Assembly: GCA_020351305.1 (NCBI GenBank)
Contig: CP070730.1
Location: forward strand, 1,249,758-1,313,686
DNA from: Candidatus Bathyarchaeota archaeon
Lineage (GTDB): Archaea; Thermoproteota; Bathyarchaeia; Bathyarchaeales; SOJC01
Direction: 5' to 3'
DNA length: 63,929 bases
In this document: positions 1 to 14,741 of the stretch, piece by piece
Position numbering within the stretch: position 1 is the first letter of the stretch
How the letters are laid out: every line of letters begins with the position of its first letter
Translations under genes and position numbers: made by a program
Notes under the pieces: model-generated
The model's database searches: none
Told to the model about the DNA's origin: nothing
What the model saw: the letters and a program-made list of their open reading frames with translations, nothing else

Positions 1-1012
1 CTACAATCTTTGTGTCAAATAACTCGAGCGTAACAGAACTAGGAAGCTTTATTGCCTTTAGAGTTATTGTTGCGATGGTTCCATTTCCTTCTGCAAATAC
101 TGTCCAGCTTGGGGTTCCTGTAATGTTTGGCCACAGGACTATTCCGACTACAAAGTAGTCTGCTCCGATTCCTGCATGCTCATCGTACCAAACGAAAATT
201 GTTCCATTGTCTGCGGTGTTTGGCGGTGTCACGAATTGCTTCATGAAGGGCCCTTCTGTAACATCAACGAGTTCCAGAACGTCTGGATGATAGCGCAATT
301 TGAATTCTACGCCTATGGCACGCCAGTCTACAACAAGATTGTTCATTGTCACGTTGATTTCAAAGGTTTCCCCTAAATGCATCACGCTATTCTCTGCAGG
401 TTCTACTTTCAAGACTGGTTCTGGCAGAGGAGGATACGAATACTCATATATTCCGTCTACTGTAGTGAATGATAGTGATGGTTCTAGCTTCGTGAAAAAT
501 GAGGCTTCACCAGCTGTTACTATGTGAAGTGGACATGTAAGCATACCCGCTACTGGTGGAGCAGCTGTGATGTTGAACTCTAGTTGACAGAGTCTGCCTT
601 CCGACACGTTTACTGGTGTAGCACCGATGCCTAGGGCTACAGCCCATAAAGCGTATCCCTGGATGTTGTTGATGTCTTGTGCAACTGGAAAGTGACTTTG
701 ACCAGCAAAGACATGGTCTGAAGGCAAGGTCATATCAAGACATTCTAAATAAGCAGGGTTCCATGTTATGTTTGCTTGCCATCCATTTAGACCCGTTACA
801 TTAAAGACTGAAATGTTCGCGAAGAAAGTATCACCAATGCTTGTAGTGTCGGTGTAAAAAGTGAAATTTCCATCTCCACTTGATGGGTTGATGACTTTCA
901 CTTCAGTACCATTTGCAGCTAGCACATAAATAGTAGGTTGATTAGCTACCATGAACACGCTTGAAATTAACATGAATACAAAGCTTAAGCTAAGTAACTT
1001 CCGTATTTTCAC
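1..1012 (-). CDS. Secreted cohesin-like protein, 3' end beyond window
   Basis: Partial: the frame is open to the window edge, giving at least 337 residues. I place the start at GTG 1010-1012 because it is followed by a classical signal peptide (basic MKIRKLL, then a hydrophobic stretch); the ATG at 973 would cut into that hydrophobic core. Two cohesin-like beta-sandwich modules can be read. The first (about residues 35-180) opens with NPSSGDGNFTFYTDTT and ends with GEASFFTKLEPS, the same framework as the proteins at 1940 and 5857. The second (about 195-337) resembles the second module of the protein at 5857, with a shared GPFM segment. The cohesin assignment rests on pattern and on the neighbouring dockerins. 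Whether this protein ends in a dockerin, an anchor or neither lies outside the window. Confidence 0.75.
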   Translation of the reverse strand, partial: MKIRKLLSLSFVFMLISSVFMVANQPTIYVLAANGTEVKVINPSSGDGNFTFYTDTTSIGDTFFANISVFNVTGLNGWQANITWNPAYLECLDMTLPSDHVFAGQSHFPVAQDINNIQGYALWAVALGIGATPVNVSEGRLCQLEFNITAAPPVAGMLTCPLHIVTAGEASFFTKLEPSLSFTTVDGIYEYSYPPLPEPVLKVEPAENSVMHLGETFEINVTMNNLVVDWRAIGVEFKLRYHPDVLELVDVTEGPFMKQFVTPPNTADNGTIFVWYDEHAGIGADYFVVGIVLWPNITGTPSWTVFAEGNGTIATITLKAIKLPSSVTLELFDTKIV

Positions 1013-1148
1013 ATAACCTTCTTTCAATAATGTCACCGTAGCCAGAGGTATGCAGTTTAAGAGTATTTAAATCTTAAAGATTCCAAAATTAGACTAGAGA
1101 TTCAGTTTTCATGAATACCTTGTCCGAATTAGCTAATTCCCTTTCTGG

Positions 1149-1160
1149 AAAAAAAAGAGT
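1149..1160 (-). terminator. T-tract terminator after the anchored cohesin gene
   Basis: On the minus strand a CACTC segment runs into eight T residues (A8 at 1149-1156 on the plus strand), about 40 nt after the stop of the gene at 1193. Archaeal RNA polymerase terminates at T-tracts. The same C/T-then-T design follows three other genes of this window. Confidence 0.5.
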
Positions 1161-1192
1161 GTTTGTTTGAATTCTCTTTTTGACAATTAAGG

Positions 1193-1852
1193 TTACTTAA
1201 GAGCGAGATATCTTCTTCTGGCAAAGAGGACCGCGAAACTCACGATTATCAGGACGGGAACAAGCAGCATCATCGGTAACTCTGGGTAAATCTCTATTTC
1301 ACCCCGTACCGCTGTGGGGAAAACCTCCACTGTCGATCCTAATGGATCGGGAAGAGTGCTAAGTTTCGTCACTATTGTCCCTTCAGATGCAAAGGTAACA
1401 TTGCTCCATCCCTCGGCAATACCTCGGAATTCAATCTGGCACAACTTGCCCTCAGTGACATTTATGGGATCGTATTGCACAGAACCGTTTAAGCCTTGAG
1501 CTACAGCCCAGACTACAAATCCAGCACTGTTATTGATATCTTTTGCAACTTCGAAAACATTCTGCCCAGCAAAGACGTGGTCGTCAGGAAGAGAAATGTC
1601 AAGTGCTTCCAGTATAGTTGGATCGAAGGTTATGTTGACTTGCCATCCCTTAAGAAAGGAAATGTTCTGAACAACTGCGTTAACCACAAATGGATCTGTA
1701 GGAACATTAGGGCCCACATTTACAGGGGTAGGCAATATTCTTACGGTGGTTTGATCTTGACCCAATGCAGAGTACATATATGTAGCAGAGGAAAGCAAAG
1801 AAGCCAATATCACTGCAAGTGTAATTGTCTTAAGTGAGAATCTTTTAGCCAT
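1193..1852 (-). CDS. Membrane-anchored single-cohesin surface protein
   Basis: 219 residues: an N-terminal hydrophobic signal segment (about 8-30), one cohesin-like module (about 38-185, with NISFLKGWQVNITFDP and DDHVFAGQNVFEV matching the paralogues) and a C-terminal hydrophobic helix (about 193-212) followed by RRRYLALK. The layout is that of an extracellular domain held at the membrane with its tail inside, so it could serve as the anchoring cohesin for the dockerin proteins encoded next to it. It is the only protein of the cohesin group here with a visible C-terminal anchor. Start: ATG at 1852. The binding partner is not shown by sequence. Confidence 0.7.
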   Translation of the reverse strand: MAKRFSLKTITLAVILASLLSSATYMYSALGQDQTTVRILPTPVNVGPNVPTDPFVVNAVVQNISFLKGWQVNITFDPTILEALDISLPDDHVFAGQNVFEVAKDINNSAGFVVWAVAQGLNGSVQYDPINVTEGKLCQIEFRGIAEGWSNVTFASEGTIVTKLSTLPDPLGSTVEVFPTAVRGEIEIYPELPMMLLVPVLIIVSFAVLFARRRYLALK

Positions 1853-1920
1853 GTGTCTTTCACCTTGATTTGTCCCTTATTAAAGGTTACATGAATATTA
1901 GTTTTTAGGTGTTTGTCCTA

Positions 1921-1935
1921 ATAAAAAGAGAGAGG
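1921..1935 (-). terminator. C/T-rich T-tract terminator
   Basis: Minus-strand CTTCCCTCTCTC followed by T5 lies a few bases after the stop of the three-cohesin/dockerin gene. It matches the pyrimidine-rich signature seen at 5811 and 7828. Confidence 0.5.
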
Positions 1936-1939
1936 GAAG

Positions 1940-3886
1940 TTAACAATGATTGCCGAAATTGATTATCGCTATTGTGATGTCAGTTATGTCTATGATTCCA
2001 TCTTGATTAAAGTCTGCATCAGGATTCCATCGAGGATGACCTGGGTCTGAACCAAAAGCATCTATAGCAATCCAAATATCCGTCACATCGACAATTCCAT
2101 CGCCATTAATGTCGCCCATTAATTTGATTTTTACCCCACCATCAATAAATACGTTATCAGCAGTGTCAATTTCATATGGGACTGGGATGGCTTCGGCTTT
2201 TATAGTGTAATTGTGGCATGGTTCTACGCCAGTTGTATCCCAAACAAAAGTAACTGTGATTTCAGTGTCCGGTGCCAGAGGAGCTACAACGTTTATCGTT
2301 CCTATAAGATTGTTGTCGTAGTAGGCTTCTACCTGAAAGGTCTCGGAGACATTTCCTTCGTTTTTGAGCGTGACGTTTATTTCAACTGTCCATCCCTCAT
2401 AGGCAATGGTTGTTGAGGTGGTAACATTAATCACCGCTATATCTCTTATGATCGCTAGGAAAAAGCCATCATGAGCTTCATGAGATATTGAATTGCCTTG
2501 ACAATCGAAGAGATAGGTATCATGGAGATCTAAAGGCGTGGCACCCATGCTTTCTACTCTGAAGATTAAAGTGAGTAGTGCGACAGGTTCCATTGTCTGC
2601 AGTGGTTGAGAAGGAGGATAGTAGGAAACGTTGACCCAAGTAAAGCCTTCAGTGTTATTTGCCACAAAGTCGGGCGTATAGTAAGTTTCGTTCAGAGCGT
2701 CGAGAAATATTATTCCGATACATGCAAGGATTTCTGGATCATAACTTAGAGTGAATTCATATGCACACACTGCTTCGACATCATCTAGTGTGATGTTTAT
2801 CTCGAATGTTTTTGGTGGAATGAGGGTTGGGTCTATTATTTCCTCCGGATCGACTGCTAGCTTGGCGACTAACATGTTGTTGAAGTATCCGTTAGCGACA
2901 TCATGAGTTATCGGTCCACTGAACTGATCTTGGAGAATGGTGTCAGTGAGAGTTAGATTAGTGGCGCCCAGTTCAAGAACATGAAAAGCGATTGTTGCAA
3001 GTGTGCCATTGCCAGTTCTTGCTGGTTCGGGTGGTGTGAGTGCTGCGGAGAATTGTATTGTGCCAGCTGTGTAGTTTATTATTATAGTAGGTGTGACGTT
3101 TGCTGGAAAGAAGCTACCCAAATCTACGGATGTAGCATTGAGAATGGTTGAGTTAAAGGTTAATGTGAAATTAAAGCTATAAAGATTCATTACATTCGCA
3201 ATGTCTATGTCCACTGTGAAGTTGTGGCAGGGTGTTAGAGATGAGTTAACTGTGCGTTCAGGATTAACATAAAGGTGGGCAAGCATTGTTTCTTCTGATG
3301 AGATATATTCGTATTGTCCATCTGACGGTGTGAAGGCAAGCGAAGTTTCCAGTTTCGTGAAAAATGAGGCTTCACCAGGCATTACTATATGGATTGAAGA
3401 AGAAAACGTGCCCCCAGGTGATGGAGCTGCTGTTATATTGAATTCCAGCTGCACTACTGTACCATTACCAGTGAAGCTGCCGCTTAATACAGCTGCTGCC
3501 CACAACACCCAACCATCAGCATTGTCAATAGTTTTGGCTGTTGGCAGAAAGGCGCCTAAACCTGCCAAGACATGGTCTGTTGGGACAGTTATATCAAGCA
3601 ACTCTAAATAACTGGGATTCCACGTTATGTTTACCTGCCAACCATTAAGACCTGTCACATTGGTGACTGAAACGTTTGCGAAGAAAGTATAGCCAACGCG
3701 TGTAGTGTTGGTGTAGAAAGTGAAGTTCCCGTCACCTGAGGTTGGATTAATAATGGCTAACTGGGTTTGCGATGTTGCTGAGGCTGATGGCAAGGTGAGT
3801 GGATTTGTGATAAGTGCAAGTGTGGTAAGAAACCAGAGTAAAATTGTTATTTTTGTAACTATCTTTTTGTTTTGCTTTCTGTACAT
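1940..3886 (-). CDS. Secreted protein with three cohesin-like modules, CARDB-like domain and dockerin
   Basis: 648 residues. After a signal peptide (about 10-38) come a cohesin-like module (about 43-195, shared almost word for word with the protein at 5857), two more divergent cohesin-like modules (about 200-335 and 340-480), a CARDB-like beta-sandwich (about 485-590, with EGWTVEINVTLKNEGNVSE) and a C-terminal type I-like dockerin (591-648). The dockerin carries two EF-hand-like calcium loops, DINGDGIVDVTD and DFNQDGIIDITD. Having both cohesins and a dockerin, the protein could be an adaptor scaffoldin that receives dockerin proteins and itself docks. There is no transmembrane anchor at the C-terminus. 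Function is inferred from modules only. Confidence 0.75.
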   Translation of the reverse strand: MYRKQNKKIVTKITILLWFLTTLALITNPLTLPSASATSQTQLAIINPTSGDGNFTFYTNTTRVGYTFFANVSVTNVTGLNGWQVNITWNPSYLELLDITVPTDHVLAGLGAFLPTAKTIDNADGWVLWAAAVLSGSFTGNGTVVQLEFNITAAPSPGGTFSSSIHIVMPGEASFFTKLETSLAFTPSDGQYEYISSEETMLAHLYVNPERTVNSSLTPCHNFTVDIDIANVMNLYSFNFTLTFNSTILNATSVDLGSFFPANVTPTIIINYTAGTIQFSAALTPPEPARTGNGTLATIAFHVLELGATNLTLTDTILQDQFSGPITHDVANGYFNNMLVAKLAVDPEEIIDPTLIPPKTFEINITLDDVEAVCAYEFTLSYDPEILACIGIIFLDALNETYYTPDFVANNTEGFTWVNVSYYPPSQPLQTMEPVALLTLIFRVESMGATPLDLHDTYLFDCQGNSISHEAHDGFFLAIIRDIAVINVTTSTTIAYEGWTVEINVTLKNEGNVSETFQVEAYYDNNLIGTINVVAPLAPDTEITVTFVWDTTGVEPCHNYTIKAEAIPVPYEIDTADNVFIDGGVKIKLMGDINGDGIVDVTDIWIAIDAFGSDPGHPRWNPDADFNQDGIIDITDITIAIINFGNHC

Positions 3887-4110
3887 TTATTCTCTTTCTC
3901 CCGTAATAATAGAACTTGACAATTGTGATTATAAAGGTTCTGGAATCTAATTCCAATGAAAGCGAAGAGTCCTTTTTAAGGTGCATACATCTCTATGAAT
4001 CACTTATTCACTCGTGACTTAAGTTAGTTCTATTGATCTAATGTACTTTGCCGTAACAACTTGCAGTGCCTTAGCTGTAGTTTTGGCTACGCCAACAATT
4101 TTGCGGTTAG

Positions 4111-5721
4111 CTATAGTGTTTCCCCGAAATGGACTATGACTATAGTGATGTCGGTTATGTCCACGACGAGGTCGTTGTTTAAGTCGTAATTTGAGTTCCA
4201 ACCTGGGCTGCCAGGTGTAGTGCCAAAGGCATCAATAACAAGGACAATATCTGTGATGTCTACAATGCCATCACCGTTAACATCACCAATCAGTGGAGGT
4301 GCTTCACTAACAATCACTGTTTGTTCTAGTGTATCGTTTAATCCTTGAGTATCAGTCACGGTTAGAGATACAGTGTAGTTTGCTACACTAGTGAATGTGT
4401 GGTCTATTGTTGCACTTGACGTTGATGTGATGTTTCCGTCCCCGAAATTCCATGTGTAATCAACTATTGGTGCTTCTGCTACACCATTCCATCCAGGTAA
4501 GGAGCTTGAAGCATCGAATCTTACAGATTGGTTTGCATTAGGTATAGGTGGTGACCAAGTGAAGTCAGCGGTAGGGCCAATAGGTGGTTGGACAGATATG
4601 GGCTTTGCAGTCGTTGACCACAACCCTTCAGTGTCAGTAACGTTTAGAGTAACTACGTACGTTCCATTTTGCGTATATTGGTGTGTTGTAGTTGGAGGTG
4701 CTGGGTTACCTGTTCGTATCACTGGAGGTGATCCATCCCCGAAATCCCATTCAAATCTGGTTATGTTATCATTATAGCCTTCTGCAGAGGAGGCTGCGCC
4801 ATCAAAGGTTATTGTCTGGTTGACGAAGGGATCAGCTGGGGAATAGCTGAAAGCTGCCTGCGGTGGGTATGGACCTTGCAGTATTTCATAATTAGATGAA
4901 GTTCTTGATTCGAATCCGTCATATGTTGCGCTTGAGTATATGATTCCTTCTCCTGACTTCATTTCTGGGTGTAACTTGAGTGTCGCATTATATGTTCCGT
5001 TGATTGTATCTGGAGTAAGATTAGGTTCTCCAGTGAAGGTTGTGATTCCATATCTGTCTGTGATTTGAAATGCAGCGTAACTTTCGGGGCAAATTGCAAC
5101 TCCACCATTTGAGGGACGGGTTGAGTATACGCCTGCGCATGCTAAGGCTGTTCCTCTGTAAGGCCAGTTCAGTAAAGGGTATGTAAGCACAAATTCTGGC
5201 TCAGTGTTGCTCCTCAAGAGATAAGGTCCTTGAGTAATTGCGCCAGGAAGTGCAACACTATTTCCATCAAACACTGTGACTGCAATAATCACATTTCGGT
5301 CATTAGGTTCGTTGTTTTTTATTGTTATGTGAAAATATGCGAAACTAGCTGTGAAAGGTGCTGCTATTTTAAAGTCTGTCACTGGATCGCCCACTGAATC
5401 AGAGGGCATAATGTTAGTGATCTCTACTGGCCATTGACTTGCTGATATGTCTCCAGTTGGCAAAGTTCTTAAAGCGACAAGTCCAATGTCATCTTGAATT
5501 TCAAGAGCCACCAAAGCGGTGCTTACTGGTATCCCATCGAAAGTTACGTTGCCACTTATGCTTAAAGAATCTCGTAGATAATATGACTGCTTGGTGATAT
5601 TCAGTGTTATGCTTAGTGAAGCAGCATAGACTGGAATTGTAGAAAAACTCGATAGTGCTAGTATTCCTAAGAAAGTAAAACGAAATAATAATGAAGGGAT
5701 TTTGCTTAATCCTCTATTCAT
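4111..5721 (-). CDS. Secreted PKD-repeat protein with C-terminal dockerin
   Basis: 536 residues: signal peptide (about 12-33), a 250-residue N-terminal beta-rich region I do not recognise, two PKD domains (about 287-375 and 382-470, each with the FxWxFGDG core: FEWDFGDGSPP and YTWNFGDGNIT) and a dockerin (479-536, loops DVNGDGIVDITD and DLNNDLVVDITD). PKD domains are extracellular spacer or binding folds. No catalytic motif was noticed. The dockerin closely resembles those at 1940 and 7865, which argues that all three dock on the same cohesin type. No T-tract terminator was seen after this gene. Confidence 0.75.
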   Translation of the reverse strand: MNRGLSKIPSLLFRFTFLGILALSSFSTIPVYAASLSITLNITKQSYYLRDSLSISGNVTFDGIPVSTALVALEIQDDIGLVALRTLPTGDISASQWPVEITNIMPSDSVGDPVTDFKIAAPFTASFAYFHITIKNNEPNDRNVIIAVTVFDGNSVALPGAITQGPYLLRSNTEPEFVLTYPLLNWPYRGTALACAGVYSTRPSNGGVAICPESYAAFQITDRYGITTFTGEPNLTPDTINGTYNATLKLHPEMKSGEGIIYSSATYDGFESRTSSNYEILQGPYPPQAAFSYSPADPFVNQTITFDGAASSAEGYNDNITRFEWDFGDGSPPVIRTGNPAPPTTTHQYTQNGTYVVTLNVTDTEGLWSTTAKPISVQPPIGPTADFTWSPPIPNANQSVRFDASSSLPGWNGVAEAPIVDYTWNFGDGNITSTSSATIDHTFTSVANYTVSLTVTDTQGLNDTLEQTVIVSEAPPLIGDVNGDGIVDITDIVLVIDAFGTTPGSPGWNSNYDLNNDLVVDITDITIVIVHFGETL

Positions 5722-5810
5722 TCATGGACCTCATAAACGTTAAAAGCTCTCGTCAATTTAAACGTTCTGAAATTATGTTCTATTAAGTTAGTTGGCTTTA
5801 CAGAATGATT

Positions 5811-5829
5811 AAATATAAAAAAAGAGGGA
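5811..5829 (-). terminator. C/T-rich T-tract terminator
   Basis: On the minus strand TCCCTC leads into T7 (A7 at 5817-5823 on plus), about 35 nt downstream of the stop of the cohesin gene at 5857. Confidence 0.55.
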
Positions 5830-5856
5830 ATGGGGATAGGATTTTCAGATGGTTTT

Positions 5857-7659
5857 CTATGGCATCCTTAGGATTCTGAACTCTGCTTGTACTTCTGGAC
5901 AGTACGGATGACCACCTTCGGATGGCCAATCGCTTAGTGCGTTGACTATAGCTGTTCCTGTGCCTACAAATGCATGTTTCGGCAGGTATACACAGAGTGT
6001 TATGTTGTACTCAAGGAATGTACACCACTCGTGCTCTCCGCCAACATAGACCCACATATAGGCGAATCCAATTGGCACGTCGAGGTCGTCTGTGACAACT
6101 AGTGTAATCAGTGTCCAGAATGGTTGTTCTGCGTATGTTCTGAAGTATATGTCGAAGCAAGCTGTTTCGGTCTTGTTCCACTCAGTTGCTTTAGGTATGA
6201 CTTCTGTGATTTCTACGCGCCACCAGACCTTGAACCACAGCCAGTCCTCAACAACTTCGCATCCAATGTCAACAGTAGCCACGACCTCCCAAATACCGAA
6301 TATCTCGGTTTCAGGGTCGATGCATGGCCATGGAAGCTGGAAGCACACCGTAGCGTATCCAGTCTCATTGCTGAATGCGCTGAAGATGTAGACTTGTCCA
6401 TATGGACCTCGCACTTCGAAGGCTACTAGCTTGTGTTGCACTGGGTCTAGGTTGTAGGTGACGAGAGCTGTCAGGCACACTGTCTTCTGAGGCCAGAACA
6501 TGTCGCTTGTCTTGTTAATGCCCTGTCCACCATAGGGGTCAGGCCATTGTGTGAAGACATCGATGTTGCGGCCAAGGATGTATCCAAGGACTCTTGCTGT
6601 GCCGTTTTGCGCTGGATCAAAGTCAATGTATCTAAGGTCAGGGTCGATAGCCCAGTTACCGAAGAGTGGCTCAACGTCTATCGGAGAGTCCTCATACCAT
6701 GGGAACTCTTCCTCATAGATTACTTCGAAGTCAATCGTTACTAGCGTTCCGCTGCCACTGGGGTATGTTGTCATAGCTGTGTGGTTGTTAATGAATATAC
6801 CAAACACAAGTTCTGTGCCGTCGTCGTGCCCTGCAAACCAAGTCGCTGGTGAAGTGGCTGGGGGTGCATAGCTTGCCATGAAAGGTCCTTCTGTCCAACC
6901 AAGTACATCGAGTAATGTGGTGTTGTAGTTTGTGACTTTGAACTGGACGGCTACCATTCGCCAGCCAGCGGCTAGGTTGTTTATGTTGATGTCAACAGAG
7001 AATAGTGCTGAGGGTGTTCCAACGATTGGAGCTCCTCCGCCTAATTCTGTGTAAGATGGTTCTACGCTAATGTATGGTGTGGTTGTTGGTGGAGCATAGA
7101 TGAAGTAGTAATCTGCGTCAGTTGTTGTGAATGAAATGCTAGGTTCTAGTTTGCAGAAGAAAGAGGCTTCACCTGATAATACGAGGTGTATTTGAGAGTG
7201 TAGGAATGTGAATGGTGCTGGTTCAGCAGCTATCTGGAATTCCAGTTGAGCCACTGTACCACTGCCGTTGAAGTGACCGCTTAGGACAGCAGCTGCCCAC
7301 AACACCCAACCATCAGTATTGTCAACGGTCTTGGCTGTTGGCAGAAAAGTACCCAACCCAGATAGGACGTGGTCTGCTGGAACAGTTATGTCAACTAACT
7401 GTAAGTGGCTAGGATTGAATGATACATTAAGCTGCCAACCGGTCATCTGCACAGCGTTGACGACTGTAACATTGGCATAGAATGTGTCACCTAGTGATGT
7501 GGTGGAAGTGTAGAAAGTGAAGTTGTTAGTACTACTGATTGGATCCACGACATTCAGTTCATCAGCATCTGCACCGACAGCAGTGCCAATGACGAAGATA
7601 GAAGCAACGTTAAGCATTAATACGATAGCAAGCAAAGTGGAAAGTAGTTTTCTGTTCAA
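5857..7659 (-). CDS. Secreted protein with two cohesin-like modules
   Basis: 600 residues with a signal peptide (about 5-28). The first cohesin-like module (about 35-190) shares long near-identical stretches with the first module of the protein at 1940, such as GTFLPTAKTVDN and DGWVLWAAAVLSG. The second (about 195-365) resembles the second module of the window-edge protein. The C-terminal 230 residues look like one or two immunoglobulin-like domains rich in Trp. Neither a dockerin nor a C-terminal membrane helix is visible, so retention on the cell is unexplained; it may bind through its Ig-like part. Three genes of the island follow this N-terminal module plan, so they are tandem paralogues. 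Confidence 0.7.
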   Translation of the reverse strand: MNRKLLSTLLAIVLMLNVASIFVIGTAVGADADELNVVDPISSTNNFTFYTSTTSLGDTFYANVTVVNAVQMTGWQLNVSFNPSHLQLVDITVPADHVLSGLGTFLPTAKTVDNTDGWVLWAAAVLSGHFNGSGTVAQLEFQIAAEPAPFTFLHSQIHLVLSGEASFFCKLEPSISFTTTDADYYFIYAPPTTTPYISVEPSYTELGGGAPIVGTPSALFSVDININNLAAGWRMVAVQFKVTNYNTTLLDVLGWTEGPFMASYAPPATSPATWFAGHDDGTELVFGIFINNHTAMTTYPSGSGTLVTIDFEVIYEEEFPWYEDSPIDVEPLFGNWAIDPDLRYIDFDPAQNGTARVLGYILGRNIDVFTQWPDPYGGQGINKTSDMFWPQKTVCLTALVTYNLDPVQHKLVAFEVRGPYGQVYIFSAFSNETGYATVCFQLPWPCIDPETEIFGIWEVVATVDIGCEVVEDWLWFKVWWRVEITEVIPKATEWNKTETACFDIYFRTYAEQPFWTLITLVVTDDLDVPIGFAYMWVYVGGEHEWCTFLEYNITLCVYLPKHAFVGTGTAIVNALSDWPSEGGHPYCPEVQAEFRILRMP

Positions 7660-7864: not shown

Positions 7865-9952
7865 TTATGGTAGTGTTACGGCGCCGAATTTCGAGATTAT
7901 GCGTACGATGTCGGAAATGTCTGTCACGTAGTCAGCGTTTACGTCACTCTTGCCGTATGACCATCTTGGATGTCCTGGTTCACTACCAAAGTCTGCAATT
8001 CCTTCCACAATGTCTGTGATGTCGACAACGCCGTCAAAGTTGGTGTCCTCTCTGAGGAATGGTGCCCAGTACGTGCTGCCTCTGTTGGCTGATACACGGA
8101 TTACCTGAGCAGTTGTATCGAATGAGTGGAAGACATATGGTCCACAGCCGATTAGAGCCGTCAAGAATGGGAATTCTGCAGGCTTTGCGTTGCCTGTGTG
8201 AGTGGTGTAGTCTACTTCCCAAGGACGGAATGCGTTCAGTGTTGTGTAGTTCATGCCAGCATAGATTTGTGGCGCACATAAAGCTATGTTGCCTAAGTAG
8301 GTTTCTACGTTGAACAGACCGGTTGCGTTGAACCAGACAGTCATGCGTGTTGATGAGTGTACGGTGGCGTTTACGTAGCTTGTTCCGATGAAGTAGAGCT
8401 GACGAGCGCTACTGCAGTTAACTGCGAATTCATAGTTAAATAGAATGTCTGATGTGTCGAAGACTTGGCCATCATGCCATGTTATGCCGTTTCGTAGAGT
8501 CATGGTGAGTTCTGTGCCGTCCACCCATTGTCCGTAGGTGTTTGTGCCATTCATTCGGCTGTAGCTCCAGTCACTTACCATCCAATTCACTGTCTCGTGT
8601 GTGAATGGATTTGTGACTATGCCACCGTCAAGAATGACTGACAGAACGTCGGCTTCGTAAGCAGATGAGAATATTGTGGGGTTAAGGTTGTCGACTGGTC
8701 CAGTTTCGTGATAGGTCATGTTCATTTTTGTCAGGTCAGTCCAGTGGATGAAGTTCTTTGTGAAGAAGTTGTTGGAGCCAAATCCTAGAGACTCAATCCA
8801 TCCGTGCACACCAGGTGCGTAAGCGTTGTGGTAGGCTCGTGAATACAGTGGGATGTAGGGCACGAGGAAGTAGAGATCCCATTGAATCTCATCAACTATC
8901 TCTTTCATGGCAGGCTTTCCGATCACGGCTGTGCCGTTAGGCCACTCCCAGTAGGCACAAGCATACAGCTTGTCTTCTAATGAGTTGTCATCAGTTCTTA
9001 GTCCTGGACTGTTCCAACCGTCGTAGAAGTCTGTGTCAGGGTGGAAGAACCAGTACAGATAGTCTGGATCTTTACCTAGACCCCAGCACAGGAAGTAGAT
9101 GTCGAAATCTCGGTTCATGAATACCCATTCTACCTCATCGTAGAAGCTTTCTGCATAGTTGTAGAAGTATTCATCAGTGCCATGGTATCCTGATCCTACG
9201 CTTGTAGGACCGAAGAAATCGTTCCAAGCTTCAACACAGAGGCCCGTAAGAGCCACAGATGGTGGGGCTTCTGATGGAGAAATTACGTATAATGGTCGCA
9301 TTTCGTTTCCATCAGATGTCTTCCAAAAGCCTGAAGAGTTGTCCATGTTCAATCCTGCTGGATCGGTTAGGACTTCATAGGCTAAAGTCGTGTTGTAAAC
9401 GACTGGTGGGACGTCAGTGTTGAAGTAGTATACGTTTGCTGGTGGGATGTTTGTGTCAAGTCGAACGTTGATAAACCTGTATAGCGTTGCGATCCAAGAG
9501 GTTTTCTGGCATCCGAGAAGTACGTTGAGGGCAAACCTGAAGTCGCTCTCGTTGAGCGGATACAGTTCGAACGATGGTGTACGGTTACCATAAGGTGCAC
9601 CAGTCATGTAGGGTTCATCTGGCGGACCAGCTAGAACTGGTGGAGTGTCCCTACTGTTAATGCCTAGGTAGCACATGTGGAAACCGGCGCTAGCACTGAT
9701 AGACCATGACATGTTTAGGTCTAGTTCGTCAACGTTGTCAGGGTCAATCATGCCGACCATGTTGTCAAGTTCGCCTGCTCTCGCTGCAACCATTGCGGTG
9801 GCTTCAGGATAGCTAATTTTGAGGAAGAGGTCGTCAAGTCGTGGGAAGTCGTCCAGATCAACATCAGCATAGACGGGGCTCATAGCTGCAAGGGTTGGTA
9901 GTACAAGTAATGCAATAGTCATAACAGCTGCTATTCTGAGTATTTTATGCAA
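7865..9952 (-). CDS. Circularly permuted family-5 solute-binding protein with C-terminal dockerin
   Basis: 695 residues; signal peptide 1-29 without a lipobox Cys. The family-5 (DppA/OppA-type) fold is present with its halves swapped. Residues 40-405 match the middle and C-terminal part of the family: ARAGELDNMVG (57-67), the Ala-rich LNVLLG helix, FDIYFLCWGLGKDPDYLYWFFHP (split around residue 294) and YIPLYSRAYHNAYAPGVHGW. Residues 420-632 match the N-terminal part: VDNLNPTIFSS, the DGTELTMTLRNG strand, WHDGQVFDTSDILFNYEF and CGPYVFHSFD. A dockerin follows (636-695). It diverges from dppBCDF across about 200 bp and is the evident receptor for that transporter. RBS: GGAGAAAGGAAA just before ATG 9952. 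No membrane anchor is seen. Confidence 0.85.
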   Translation of the reverse strand: MHKILRIAAVMTIALLVLPTLAAMSPVYADVDLDDFPRLDDLFLKISYPEATAMVAARAGELDNMVGMIDPDNVDELDLNMSWSISASAGFHMCYLGINSRDTPPVLAGPPDEPYMTGAPYGNRTPSFELYPLNESDFRFALNVLLGCQKTSWIATLYRFINVRLDTNIPPANVYYFNTDVPPVVYNTTLAYEVLTDPAGLNMDNSSGFWKTSDGNEMRPLYVISPSEAPPSVALTGLCVEAWNDFFGPTSVGSGYHGTDEYFYNYAESFYDEVEWVFMNRDFDIYFLCWGLGKDPDYLYWFFHPDTDFYDGWNSPGLRTDDNSLEDKLYACAYWEWPNGTAVIGKPAMKEIVDEIQWDLYFLVPYIPLYSRAYHNAYAPGVHGWIESLGFGSNNFFTKNFIHWTDLTKMNMTYHETGPVDNLNPTIFSSAYEADVLSVILDGGIVTNPFTHETVNWMVSDWSYSRMNGTNTYGQWVDGTELTMTLRNGITWHDGQVFDTSDILFNYEFAVNCSSARQLYFIGTSYVNATVHSSTRMTVWFNATGLFNVETYLGNIALCAPQIYAGMNYTTLNAFRPWEVDYTTHTGNAKPAEFPFLTALIGCGPYVFHSFDTTAQVIRVSANRGSTYWAPFLREDTNFDGVVDITDIVEGIADFGSEPGHPRWSYGKSDVNADYVTDISDIVRIISKFGAVTLP

Positions 9953-9954
9953 TT

Positions 9955-9966
9955 TCCTTTCTCCTT
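9955..9966 (-). promoter_or_regulatory. Strong ribosome-binding site for the solute-binding protein
   Basis: The minus-strand sequence GGAGAAAGGAAA lies immediately 5' of the ATG at 9952 and contains GGAG, complementary to the 16S 3' end. It fixes the start and suggests high expression, as expected for a receptor made in excess over its permease. Confidence 0.5.
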
Positions 9967-10157
9967 AATTTTCAGCAACTTTATTAGAACTGAGTCATGT
10001 TTAAAAAGTTTATGGAATATTTTTACATAAAAAAGTAACATGGAAAATCCAACTTGGTTGGGCCTTAACCCCTCAAAACAGGCACATTAGTGGCTTATAT
10101 CATTGAAGACTAAGACTTAAATATTGAGTGAAGCTCAGATAGGACGAGGAAAATCTC

Positions 10158-11180
10158 ATGGGATTTAGGGAATACCTAGCCAAAAGGATAATTGTTTCAT
10201 TCTTGGTCATATTTTTGGTAGCTACTCTCAACTTCTTGATTTTCATTGTTTATCCTGCAGATCCTACAAGGTACCTGTTGGATCCACAATTGGCAAGGAC
10301 GCCAGGCTTAGTAGATGTAATAAGGGATCAGTACGGCCTGAATGAACCTCTCCATGTAAAATACGTTAAATATCTTGGCAACATGTTTTCCTTCGGCATT
10401 CTTCCACCACACTTCGGTTACTCCTTCCAAACCCATGACTTCGTTGCCAACGAAATGGCGTGGCGCATGCCGTTGACAATTCTGCTTTTAGGCTTAGCTC
10501 TTGTAGGCAATGTAATTATAGGAATCCCACTTGGAATTTTTGCAGCTTCAAGAAGAGGAACCAAAACTGATGTAGCCGTTATCGGGGCAGGATTGTTCAC
10601 TTATGGTGTGCCAACTTTCTTTGTTCAACTGCTAATGATACTCTTCTTCATAAGCTTTGTTTATCAGACATACGGAATTAAAATCTTCCCAGCTGGCGGA
10701 TGGATATCTTATCCTAACCCTGAAGGCCTGATAAATGTCATGGGAGATATTCTATGGCACATGGCATTGCCAGCATTAACATTAGTTGTCGCGGGATTTG
10801 CAGGCTGGGCATTATACACAAGGAACATGTTGGTTGACGCCTTAACTCAAGACTACGTGGCTACTGCCCGCGCGAAAGGGCTTAGCGAAAGAACAATTCT
10901 CTTCAAGCACGCGTTTAAGAGCATTCATCCACAAGTTGCCACACTTTTAACGCTAAGTCTTCCAGGGCTTGTCACAGGTGCAATAATAACAGAAACAATC
11001 TTCGGTCTCGAAGGAGTTGGAAAATGGTATCTCTCTTCTCTCGACAGATCTAACCCAGATTTCCCAGTTGTGCAAGCAGTTCTTTTCGTGGTTGCCACTT
11101 TAGTCGTCGTCTGTAATCTTGTTGCAGACCTGTTATATGGTGTATTAGATCCTAGAATACGTGTTGGACAAAGAAGGTAG
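10158..11180 (+). CDS. dppB: Oligopeptide ABC transporter permease, DppB type
   Basis: 340 residues, the usual family length. N-terminal membrane helix (about 10-32), then the BPD_transp_1 core of about five helices. The permease EAA-like loop is clear as DYVATARAKGLSERTILFKHAFK (split at residue 245), which contacts the ATPases on the cytoplasmic side. First gene of dppBCDF. A TATA-like TTAAATAT is at 10115-10122 and GAGGA at 10146-10150 precedes ATG 10158. The substrate is probably short peptides, judged from family and neighbours, but family-5 systems also carry other solutes. Confidence 0.9.
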   Translation: MGFREYLAKRIIVSFLVIFLVATLNFLIFIVYPADPTRYLLDPQLARTPGLVDVIRDQYGLNEPLHVKYVKYLGNMFSFGILPPHFGYSFQTHDFVANEMAWRMPLTILLLGLALVGNVIIGIPLGIFAASRRGTKTDVAVIGAGLFTYGVPTFFVQLLMILFFISFVYQTYGIKIFPAGGWISYPNPEGLINVMGDILWHMALPALTLVVAGFAGWALYTRNMLVDALTQDYVATARAKGLSERTILFKHAFKSIHPQVATLLTLSLPGLVTGAIITETIFGLEGVGKWYLSSLDRSNPDFPVVQAVLFVVATLVVVCNLVADLLYGVLDPRIRVGQRR

Positions 11181-11189
11181 GAGACAAGT

Positions 11190-12779
11190 ATGAAACTTAA
11201 GAGCCCAATCAGCGAGTATCGAGTCCAGCTTTGGACAAGAAGAATCAAGAATTTCTGGTTAGACTATTCTCATAATAAAATTGGATTGGTAGGTTTGGTG
11301 ATCATCGTTGGATTTGTGTTTACAGCCGTTACCTCGCCTTGGCTCGCCCCTTACTCTGTAGAGGAGGTTAGACCAGATGCTCTCAAATATAACGCAGATG
11401 GCTATGCTGTACCCGCTTGGTATCCCATTTTCTTCCCAGCCACAGCTAACTACCCTCCACAGCATGAGCTTAAACTTAATTGGTCTATGGCTGCTGGTGA
11501 GCTCCCACAATCCTTAACTGCTAACGGGTCGGGACGATCATTCAGAGTTTATTATGACGCGAATATAACAGGAAGCTCTGATCCTGTAGAAGCCGTGTTT
11601 GTTTCGAAGTTTGAGTACCCCTATAAATACATGCGAATTTTTGAAATGCAGTTCACCTACAATCCTCGACCAGAGAGCTTTGTGGAGATTAGGAGGTTCA
11701 TAGCGGGGAAGTGGAGGGTAATAGGGACAACAGGTTCCATGCTTTGGAAAATCGAGTTTGAACTGGTTCGCCCAGACAACGCTACTTTTCCTTTCTGGGA
11801 TAATAACTGGGAAAGGAATAAGTATGTAAACCCCCACGCCTTGCCAGATTTTTCAGACGATGCTACAGGCGACACAATAACACTAATTTCAAGTGATCGT
11901 ACTCTACCACCGAAGCTTGGATATGAAGCTTGGGAAACTTCGCTAATGACAGCACACCTTTTCCTAAAGCCCGGGGAGTACCTAGTGCGTGCAAAAATAA
12001 CTTTCAAACCACCTGATGATATACCTGTAGAAGAAGCCGCAGGAAGCATTGAGATTTCAAACTTTGATGTTGAAATTAGGGGGCGCATACATGGGTTACT
12101 TGGAACTGACGCTTTTGGTCATGACGTATGGTCGCAGCTTCTTCATGGTGCTGCAATATCACTTCTATTCGGAATTTCCTCAGCAGCGATTGCTGTAAGC
12201 CTTGGAATACTTGTAGGTGTCACAGCAGGATTTGTTGGCGGCGCAGTAGATGAAGTAATGATGCGAATTGTTGACATACTCCTTTGTATCCCAGTCCTAC
12301 CTATACTACTTGTCTTGATTGCTGTTTTCGGTTATAGTCTTTGGTATTTGGTTCTCATTATCGCCATATTTGGATGGCAGGGATTATCCAGAGTCATAAG
12401 GTCTCACGTACTATCCCTACGTGAGATGGCGTTTGTAGAATGCGCAACAGCGTCTGGGGCATCCAAAGGATACATCATACTCAAGCACATTGTGCCCAAC
12501 GTATTACCCACAGCCCTTGCATCAATGGTGCTTTCAGTACCTGGAGCCATAATTCTTGAGGCTGCACTAAGCTTCTTGGGTTTCGGAGACCCGTTAGCAC
12601 CTACGTGGGGAAAAATGTTGCAAAACGCATACGCATTTGGGGCATTCTCGCCAACGAACTTAGCCTTATGGGACATATTGCCCCCTGGAATAGCGATCGT
12701 TTTGATATGTATGGGATTCGTCTTCCTGGGCCATGCTATAGACGAAGTAGTTAATCCTCGACTTCGGAGACGACGATAA
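11190..12779 (+). CDS. dppC: Oligopeptide ABC transporter permease, DppC type, with large extracellular insert
   Basis: 529 residues against roughly 280-310 for the family. Helix 1 (about 33-55) ends at the conserved SPWLAPYS. In ordinary DppC that is followed within some 40 residues by the HPLGTDxxGRD motif, but here the motif (HGLLGTDAFGHD, 301-312) comes only after about 245 residues. The intervening segment is soluble, rich in aromatic and beta-forming residues, carries N-glycosylation sequons and by topology lies outside the cell. The C-terminal permease core and EAA loop (REMAFVECATASGASKGYIILKH, split at residue 420) are normal. The insert could contact the unusual receptor or a surface scaffold. 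The start lies 9 bp after dppB. Confidence 0.9.
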   Translation: MKLKSPISEYRVQLWTRRIKNFWLDYSHNKIGLVGLVIIVGFVFTAVTSPWLAPYSVEEVRPDALKYNADGYAVPAWYPIFFPATANYPPQHELKLNWSMAAGELPQSLTANGSGRSFRVYYDANITGSSDPVEAVFVSKFEYPYKYMRIFEMQFTYNPRPESFVEIRRFIAGKWRVIGTTGSMLWKIEFELVRPDNATFPFWDNNWERNKYVNPHALPDFSDDATGDTITLISSDRTLPPKLGYEAWETSLMTAHLFLKPGEYLVRAKITFKPPDDIPVEEAAGSIEISNFDVEIRGRIHGLLGTDAFGHDVWSQLLHGAAISLLFGISSAAIAVSLGILVGVTAGFVGGAVDEVMMRIVDILLCIPVLPILLVLIAVFGYSLWYLVLIIAIFGWQGLSRVIRSHVLSLREMAFVECATASGASKGYIILKHIVPNVLPTALASMVLSVPGAIILEAALSFLGFGDPLAPTWGKMLQNAYAFGAFSPTNLALWDILPPGIAIVLICMGFVFLGHAIDEVVNPRLRRRR

Positions 12780-12781
12780 AG

Positions 12782-13738
12782 ATGGAACTTCTTAAACTAC
12801 AAAATCTTAAAATGTACTATGGAACCCTTAGAGGGGATGTACGCGCTGTAGACGACATCAGCTTCACGATGGAAAAGAAAGACACCGTGGGACTTGCAGG
12901 TGAGTCAGGATGCGGCAAAACAAGTGCTATGCTAGCCATATTACGATTACAGCCCCCAAACGCGAAAGTCAGTGGAGAGATTCTTTTTCAAGGAAAAAAC
13001 CTGTTGAAAATGAGTGATAGCGAGTTCAGAAAAAATATTAGATGGAAAAAGATCTCTACAATATTTCAAGGGGCGATGAACGCACTTCACCCCACGCTGA
13101 GAGTTGGAGACCAAATCACTGAGGCGATACTTGCCCACGAATCCCGGAGCAAACAGGAAGCCACGGAGATCGCTGGGAAGCTCTTCGATCTGGTTGGAAT
13201 TGGTTCAGAAAGATTAGACAGGTACTCACATGAATTAAGTGGAGGAATGAAACAGCGAACTATGATTGCCATGAGCCTAGCCTGTAATCCAGAATTAATA
13301 ATAGCTGATGAGCCTACTACAGCTTTAGATGTGATCATAGAAGCACAAGTTTTGAAAGTGATGAAGGAACTCCAAGAAAAGCTTGGTCTCTCTATGATAG
13401 TAATTTCACATGACCTTTCTATGATTGCAGAAACCTGTAATAAGGCTGCAATCATGTATGCAGGTAAAATTGTGGAGTTTGGGGGAATTGTCAAGGTCTT
13501 CACAGAACCCCTACACCCTTACACCCAGAAGCTAATTGCAGCGTTTCCAAGTATTCTCGGAAGTATGAGGGAACTTGCCTCAATAAGCGGATTCCCACCT
13601 GATTTGCTTTCACCACCTCCAGCATGTAGATTTCATCCAAGATGCCCCTATGCAATGAATATTTGCAGGAAGGAAGAGCCAAGATATATAGAGGCTGACC
13701 AAAACAGGTATGTTGCATGCCATTTAGTCAGTAGGTGA
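12782..13738 (+). CDS. dppD: Oligopeptide ABC transporter ATP-binding protein, DppD type
   Basis: 318 residues: Walker A GESGCGKT (about 40-47), ABC signature LSGGMKQR, Walker B LIIADEPTTALD and a switch His in VISHD. The C-terminal oligo_HPY region has four cysteines (ACRFHPRCP, NICRKE, VACHL), the pattern associated in some DppD/OppD proteins with an iron-sulphur cluster. The ATG at 12782 comes 2 bp after the dppC stop codon, so translation is probably coupled. Confidence 0.93.
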   Translation: MELLKLQNLKMYYGTLRGDVRAVDDISFTMEKKDTVGLAGESGCGKTSAMLAILRLQPPNAKVSGEILFQGKNLLKMSDSEFRKNIRWKKISTIFQGAMNALHPTLRVGDQITEAILAHESRSKQEATEIAGKLFDLVGIGSERLDRYSHELSGGMKQRTMIAMSLACNPELIIADEPTTALDVIIEAQVLKVMKELQEKLGLSMIVISHDLSMIAETCNKAAIMYAGKIVEFGGIVKVFTEPLHPYTQKLIAAFPSILGSMRELASISGFPPDLLSPPPACRFHPRCPYAMNICRKEEPRYIEADQNRYVACHLVSR

Positions 13739-13742
13739 GAAA

Positions 13743-14741
13743 ATGAACAACGAATCAGTTATGAAGATCAGTAACCTGAAAAAGTATTTCCCGATAAAAG
13801 TGGGCTTCATAAAATCTTTAGCATCAAAAGAGATTCCAGCGGTTCGTGCTGTTGATGACATCAGTTTTGACATCAGAAAGGAAGAAATTTTTGGTCTTGT
13901 TGGGGAAAGCGGATGTGGGAAAACAACTACAGGTAGACTCACGATAAGACTTCTAGAACCTACTGAGGGAAGCGTGTTTTTCGAAGGAAAAGACTTGGCA
14001 GTAGTTCCAAACGATGTGATGCGCAAATTGCGCCAGAAACTGCAAATAGTCTTCCAAGATCCGTATGAATCATTAAATCCGAGAATGAGCGTATTTGATA
14101 TCATAAGTGAACCGCTGCACATACAGAATATCACAGCAAGTGAAGAGCAGACTCGGGATAGAGTTCACAAGGTTATGGAGGAAATGGGATTGGTTCCTCC
14201 GGAAGAATTCTTGTATAGATTCCCCCATGAAATTAGCGGAGGTCAAAGGCAGAGAGTTGCTATCGCTAGAGCCTTTGTTCTAGGTCCAGAATTTATTGTT
14301 GCAGACGAACCTGTCTCTATGCTGGATGCTTCGATTAGAACTCAAGTCTTGAAGTTGATCAAGAAACTAGTGAAACAGTTCCATGTTTCATTCTTATACA
14401 TCACACATGATATAGCAACATCCCGTCATATGTGTAACCGTCTGGCAGTCATGTATCTCGGAAAAATCGTAGAGATGGGCCCCACGGAATCTGTGATAAA
14501 AAATCCCTTCCATCATTACACTGATGCTCTAATTGCTGCGGTTCCAGTTCCAGACCCAACTGCCCGAAGAATTGAAGTTGTAATCAAAGGGGAAGTTCCA
14601 AGCGCATTCAATCCTCCACCAGGATGCAGATTTCATACTAGATGTCCAAGAGCCCAAGATATCTGCAAAAAAGAAGAACCAGAGCTGATAGACTTGGAAA
14701 AAGAAAGATACGTAGCTTGTCATTTCCCCTTAGGGAAATAA
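13743..14741 (+). CDS. dppF: Oligopeptide ABC transporter ATP-binding protein, DppF type
   Basis: 332 residues: Walker A GESGCGKT, Q-loop in IVFQDPYESLNPRMS, signature ISGGQRQR, Walker B FIVADEPVSMLD, and an oligo_HPY tail with four cysteines (GCRFHTRCP, DICKKE, VACHF). It pairs with DppD as the nucleotide-binding heterodimer. It starts 4 bp after dppD and is the last gene of the operon; a convergent gene ends 34 bp downstream. Confidence 0.93.
   Translation: MNNESVMKISNLKKYFPIKVGFIKSLASKEIPAVRAVDDISFDIRKEEIFGLVGESGCGKTTTGRLTIRLLEPTEGSVFFEGKDLAVVPNDVMRKLRQKLQIVFQDPYESLNPRMSVFDIISEPLHIQNITASEEQTRDRVHKVMEEMGLVPPEEFLYRFPHEISGGQRQRVAIARAFVLGPEFIVADEPVSMLDASIRTQVLKLIKKLVKQFHVSFLYITHDIATSRHMCNRLAVMYLGKIVEMGPTESVIKNPFHHYTDALIAAVPVPDPTARRIEVVIKGEVPSAFNPPPGCRFHTRCPRAQDICKKEEPELIDLEKERYVACHFPLGK

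Follow-up and report, generated by a model that had tools for sequence, protein, structure and literature searches.

Evidence for a natural circular permutant among the archaeal family-5 solute-binding proteins

The window, a 63,929-nucleotide stretch of a Candidatus Bathyarchaeota chromosome (CP070730.1), encodes on its minus strand a 695-aa solute-binding protein (SBP) in which the two parts of the family-5 fold stand in reversed order. We are confident that this protein, the product of 7865–9952, is a natural circular permutant of a family-5 (DppA/OppA/NikA, SBP_bac_5) binding protein, which most likely serves as a dockerin-tethered receptor of an importer. Complete proteins of the family were seen in three module orders only: the canonical N-C1-C2; C1-C2-N, hereafter CP1, to which the window protein belongs; and C2-N-C1, hereafter CP2. 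Natural circular permutants are thereby placed in a receptor family that is both very large and well studied, with repeatable breakpoints and with cultured strains among the carriers, which opens the constraints acting on folding, docking and anchoring in ABC importers to direct testing.

Table 1. Features of the permuted SBP gene and its neighbours in the window
Feature	Position	Strand	Basis or detail
Cohesin protein, possible dockerin tether	5857..7659	-	Pfam Cohesin 3.9e-9
CP1 (C1-C2-N) family-5 SBP with dockerin, 695 aa	7865..9952	-	
Dockerin, two repeats, residues 633-695	7868..8056	-	similarity to same-genome dockerins
Module N, residues 407-632 (canonical DppA 1-206), WHDG and GPYVF motifs	8057..8734	-	Pfam, HMM modules, breakpoint mapping
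Module C2, residues 221-406	8735..9292	-	HMM modules, breakpoint mapping
Module C1, residues 33-220 (canonical DppA about 207-352)	9293..9856	-	HMM modules, breakpoint mapping
Signal peptide, about residues 1-30	9863..9952	-	sequence KILRIAAVMTIALLVLPTLAAMSPVYA
DppB-type permease	10158..11180	+	Pfam BPD_transp_1
DppC-type permease, 529 aa, extracytoplasmic insertion	11190..12779	+	Pfam OppC_N 20-62, BPD_transp_1 339-527
DppC insertion, residues about 63-300, predicted beta-sandwich	11376..12089	+	AF2 model
DppD-type ATPase	12782..13738	+	homology and gene order
DppF-type ATPase	13743..14741	+	homology and gene order

Order of the parts and evidence for permutation

The frame is uninterrupted from a TTG start codon and runs from a signal peptide through the C-terminal part of the SBP_5 fold (residues ~33–406) and the N-terminal part (~407–632) to a dockerin; the first-pass annotation had set the two parts at 40–405 and 420–632, close to these limits. 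Pfam SBP_bac_5 matches the protein in two stretches (E 1.8e-18, 67.2 bits against a cut-off of 32.4), of which the best aligns residues 478–642 with profile positions 15–151, so that the start of the profile sits late in the protein. Since phmmer searches with the single 695-aa sequence gave a weak signal in either the native or the rotated order, proof of permutation rests on family profiles. Profile A1, an alignment of 13 homologues in their native order, was searched against solved structures, and nearly all of its best 60 matches to SBPs fell into two stretches in inverted order, the end of the query aligning with the start of the chain and its beginning with the end of the chain. By contrast, profile A3, built from seven proteins whose two parts had been swapped back, gave single stretches in most of its best 60 matches. 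Rotated in this way, the query aligned at 7–540 with residues 6–492 of 4oet (E 8e-48), and at 7–522 with residues 2–492 of E. coli DppA (1dpp), the N and C parts both being complete. It is by such a cyclic shift, seen here between the A1 and A3 matches, that a circular permutation is defined. In place of the canonical family-5 order, the protein has the order C1-C2-N, a cyclic rotation in which each part occurs once, a single breakpoint separates the new ends and the old termini are joined.

Module C2 finishes at the old C-terminus (FIHWT), from which a few residues bridge to the old N-terminus; the sequences of the permuted proteins likewise show the old ends joined by a few residues only. 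The opening of the canonical chain lies in the linker that corresponds to mature DppA 206/207, where the N..YW motif precedes the LD.L...GEID segment. An AF2 model of the protein reached medium confidence (pLDDT 75, pTM 0.77). Sequential Foldseek searches with this model retrieved NikA, AppA and OppA over about 365 columns with a TMq of about 0.4, as would be expected if an alignment in sequence order can take in just one part. On the strength of sequence and model together, the protein most likely retains the two-lobed family-5 fold, with its termini relocated.

E. coli DppA, B. subtilis AppA and NikA/NikZ (cluster C, PF00496) share with the CP1 proteins all sequence parts, the motifs and Dpp-type permease neighbours, but differ in having the order N-C1-C2 rather than C1-C2-N, the new ends of CP1 lying at DppA 206/207. 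Dockerin-bearing SBPs of the NikA/OppA type have been reported from ANME archaea (PMC9012536); these are archaeal and carry a dockerin as here, and an altered order of parts is not described in the available portion of that article. Engineered circularly permuted binding modules serve in FRET sensors (cited in PMC3454389), and these too were opened at a new site with function kept, although they are man-made whereas CP1 is natural and ancient. The first-pass annotation knew of no description of the arrangement, and the literature searched, which mostly did not extend to subscription papers, likewise yielded none of a natural permuted solute-, substrate-, periplasmic- or oligopeptide-binding protein. 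The order of the parts went unmarked because profile searches return two partial matches and because plasmid annotation is generic: plasmid-borne CP2 proteins are annotated just as 'ABC transporter substrate-binding protein'.

Importer, anchoring and the DppC insertion

The permuted SBP gene is divergent from dppBCDF, with 205 bp between it and the DppB gene. Judged from this neighbourhood, its product most likely works as the receptor for the adjacent DppBCDF importer and is tethered via a cohesin-dockerin pair. The receptor would catch an extracellular ligand and pass it to the divergently encoded importer, while its dockerin and the neighbouring cohesin protein would hold it at the cell surface. 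The dockerin contains two F-type calcium-binding repeats, in residues 633–691, and is about 40–53% identical to many other dockerins encoded in this genome; phmmer found a weak match to the cellulosomal GH48 dockerin 2y3n (E 0.042), and Pfam Dockerin_1 was not reported for the 695-aa protein at E 0.1. A cluster of cohesin and dockerin proteins occupies the minus strand beside the SBP gene (2–7659), and dockerins are numerous in this genome.

The presence of the dockerin would also suit a protein that has changed its role and does not serve an ABC importer, acting instead as a surface adhesin or as a scavenger of a cellulosome-like kind, and several dockerin-bearing CP1 genes (e.g. in L050–L057) have no permease genes detected nearby. 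Nevertheless, the window gene adjoins dppBC(DF), as do most CP1 genes for which the flanking DNA is long enough, and we regard a role apart from the importer as improbable. The proposal that permutation freed the C-terminus for the dockerin did not hold up, because canonical archaeal SBPs bear C-terminal anchors too (a transmembrane anchor in 14 of the 17 in our set); moreover, most CP1 proteins carry a transmembrane segment, not a dockerin.

In the window, DppC has an extracytoplasmic insertion of about 230 residues between TM1 and the transmembrane domain; for CP1 loci in general the insertion is roughly 200 residues long. Loci that hold both an SBP and a nearest DppC were scored for the length preceding the transmembrane domain. 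A long stretch was present at 28 of 30 CP1 loci, at none of 57 canonical loci and at 3 of 14 CP2 loci; for CP1 versus canonical loci this gives a Fisher p of 9e-21 with kinship ignored. The association of CP1 with a long DppC is strong and largely reflects shared descent. The two CP1 loci that lack the insertion (L125, and L222 from the genome that also holds L097) form one deep pair in the tree. Both kinds of system occur together in genome G227, where the CP1 system has a long DppC (L236) and the canonical one a short DppC (L242), and the window's own genome also has a canonical system alongside, with a DppC of 293 aa.

The DppC insertions of CP1 loci are mutually homologous, and the one in the window has homologues in nearly all of these loci. 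The AF2 model of the window insertion is beta-rich, and Foldseek found weak similarity to carbohydrate-binding modules. A CP1 receptor nearly always retains a DppC partner bearing an extracytoplasmic beta domain, and this domain may contact the permuted receptor. With family-5 SBPs occurring in all three cyclic orders, we tentatively entertain, at a little under even chances, that CP1 marks a separate subtype of importer in archaea, one whose receptor gained its new ends in co-evolution with the DppC beta domain and whose docking geometry is unlike that of known Dpp/Opp systems. At the roseobacter CP2 loci L158, L167 and L178, DppC is about 570 aa long (e.g. L158:6547-8262) with an apparently unrelated insertion; these insertions gave no match to a model of the CP1-locus insertions.

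Module orders, breakpoints and origins

Profile A1 was divided into the modules C1, C2 and N, with which every fetched frame was scanned. The 138 complete distinct proteins comprised 60 canonical, 58 CP1 and 20 CP2, counts that are not frequencies since CP1 queries were used for the sampling. None of the 138 showed any of the three possible non-cyclic orders, and neither a duplicated module nor a duplicated-module intermediate was seen in any complete protein scanned. The arrangement is not peculiar to one protein but belongs to a broad family: the CP1 order recurs in at least 58 distinct complete proteins, which come from Bathyarchaeia, other Thermoproteota and Asgard archaea (named carriers are Bathyarchaeota, Thermoprotei, Culexmicrobium, Hermod- and Hodarchaeota records). 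Of 121 genomes sampled from the window genome's own class, at least 23 had collinear CP1 matches, and further matches came from elsewhere in the phylum. Projected onto the mature chain of E. coli DppA, the cut lies at 206/207 in 16 of 16 sampled CP1 proteins and at 351–355 in 14 of 14 CP2 proteins; as module boundaries set the ends, these positions should not be taken as exact to the residue. These same-order homologues, their one conserved breakpoint and the rotated-profile matches bear out the initial proposal of a permutation with a single split.

Circular permutants usually arise by duplication followed by truncation, and that route, together with an in-frame TGA in the paralogue of the window's own genome, could be taken to favour two broken copies, the remnant of a tandem SBP pair that is now a decaying fusion. 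However, every module is present once and none is duplicated in complete proteins, the breakpoint is constant, the rotated profile matches in one stretch, and the order has been preserved across great divergence next to intact transporter genes; we therefore consider a fusion of broken copies very unlikely, as the first-pass annotation also held. A second, complete copy could not lie hidden next to the gene, since only 205 bp (9953–10157) separate it from DppB and the downstream gene encodes a cohesin protein. That assembly or binning exchanged the two halves is scarcely credible, as had been anticipated: the genome does contain joins filled with Ns, and one of them interrupts a canonical SBP gene (L008/L009), but the same order recurs in dozens of independent genomes and in the at least 58 proteins above, and the window frame is unbroken through signal peptide and dockerin.

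That canonical own-genome SBP appears at two places (L008:8800-10185 and L009:8939-9859), both broken by Ns and overlapping in sequence, which resembles a scaffolding join. The paralogue with the in-frame TGA is a second CP1 gene (L006:8686-13641), and the CP1 gene of L096 has one in-frame TAG in an otherwise long open frame; these genes may be pseudogenes, or the stops may reflect errors or recoding. A 413-aa CP1 derivative (L042:6705-7943) has kept module N and the dockerin but little of C1 and almost nothing of C2. The CP1 proteins of L049, L051 and L052 have large domains inserted within C1 close to the new N-terminus. Lastly, a CP1 SBP with a long DppC is found in a MAG labelled Clostridia (L123, PKEX01000033.1), through gene transfer or misbinning.

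A tree built from the rotated sequences places 39 of 40 CP1 proteins in one clade (SH-aLRT 99; 96 with a reduced set), the exception being L101, which lies outside it on a very long branch. The CP1 order most likely has a single, ancient origin within the archaea. The CP2 order is found in cultured bacteria, e.g. Alkaliphilus peptidifermentans and Sedimentibacter acidaminivorans, and also in roseobacters and haloarchaea; the CP2 loci from cultured bacteria and archaea are L130, L133, L141, L142, L158, L167, L168 and L178, and L031, L059, L083, L084, L086, L087 and L089. A single origin of CP2 was disfavoured (AU p 0.019), and this order probably had more than one origin.
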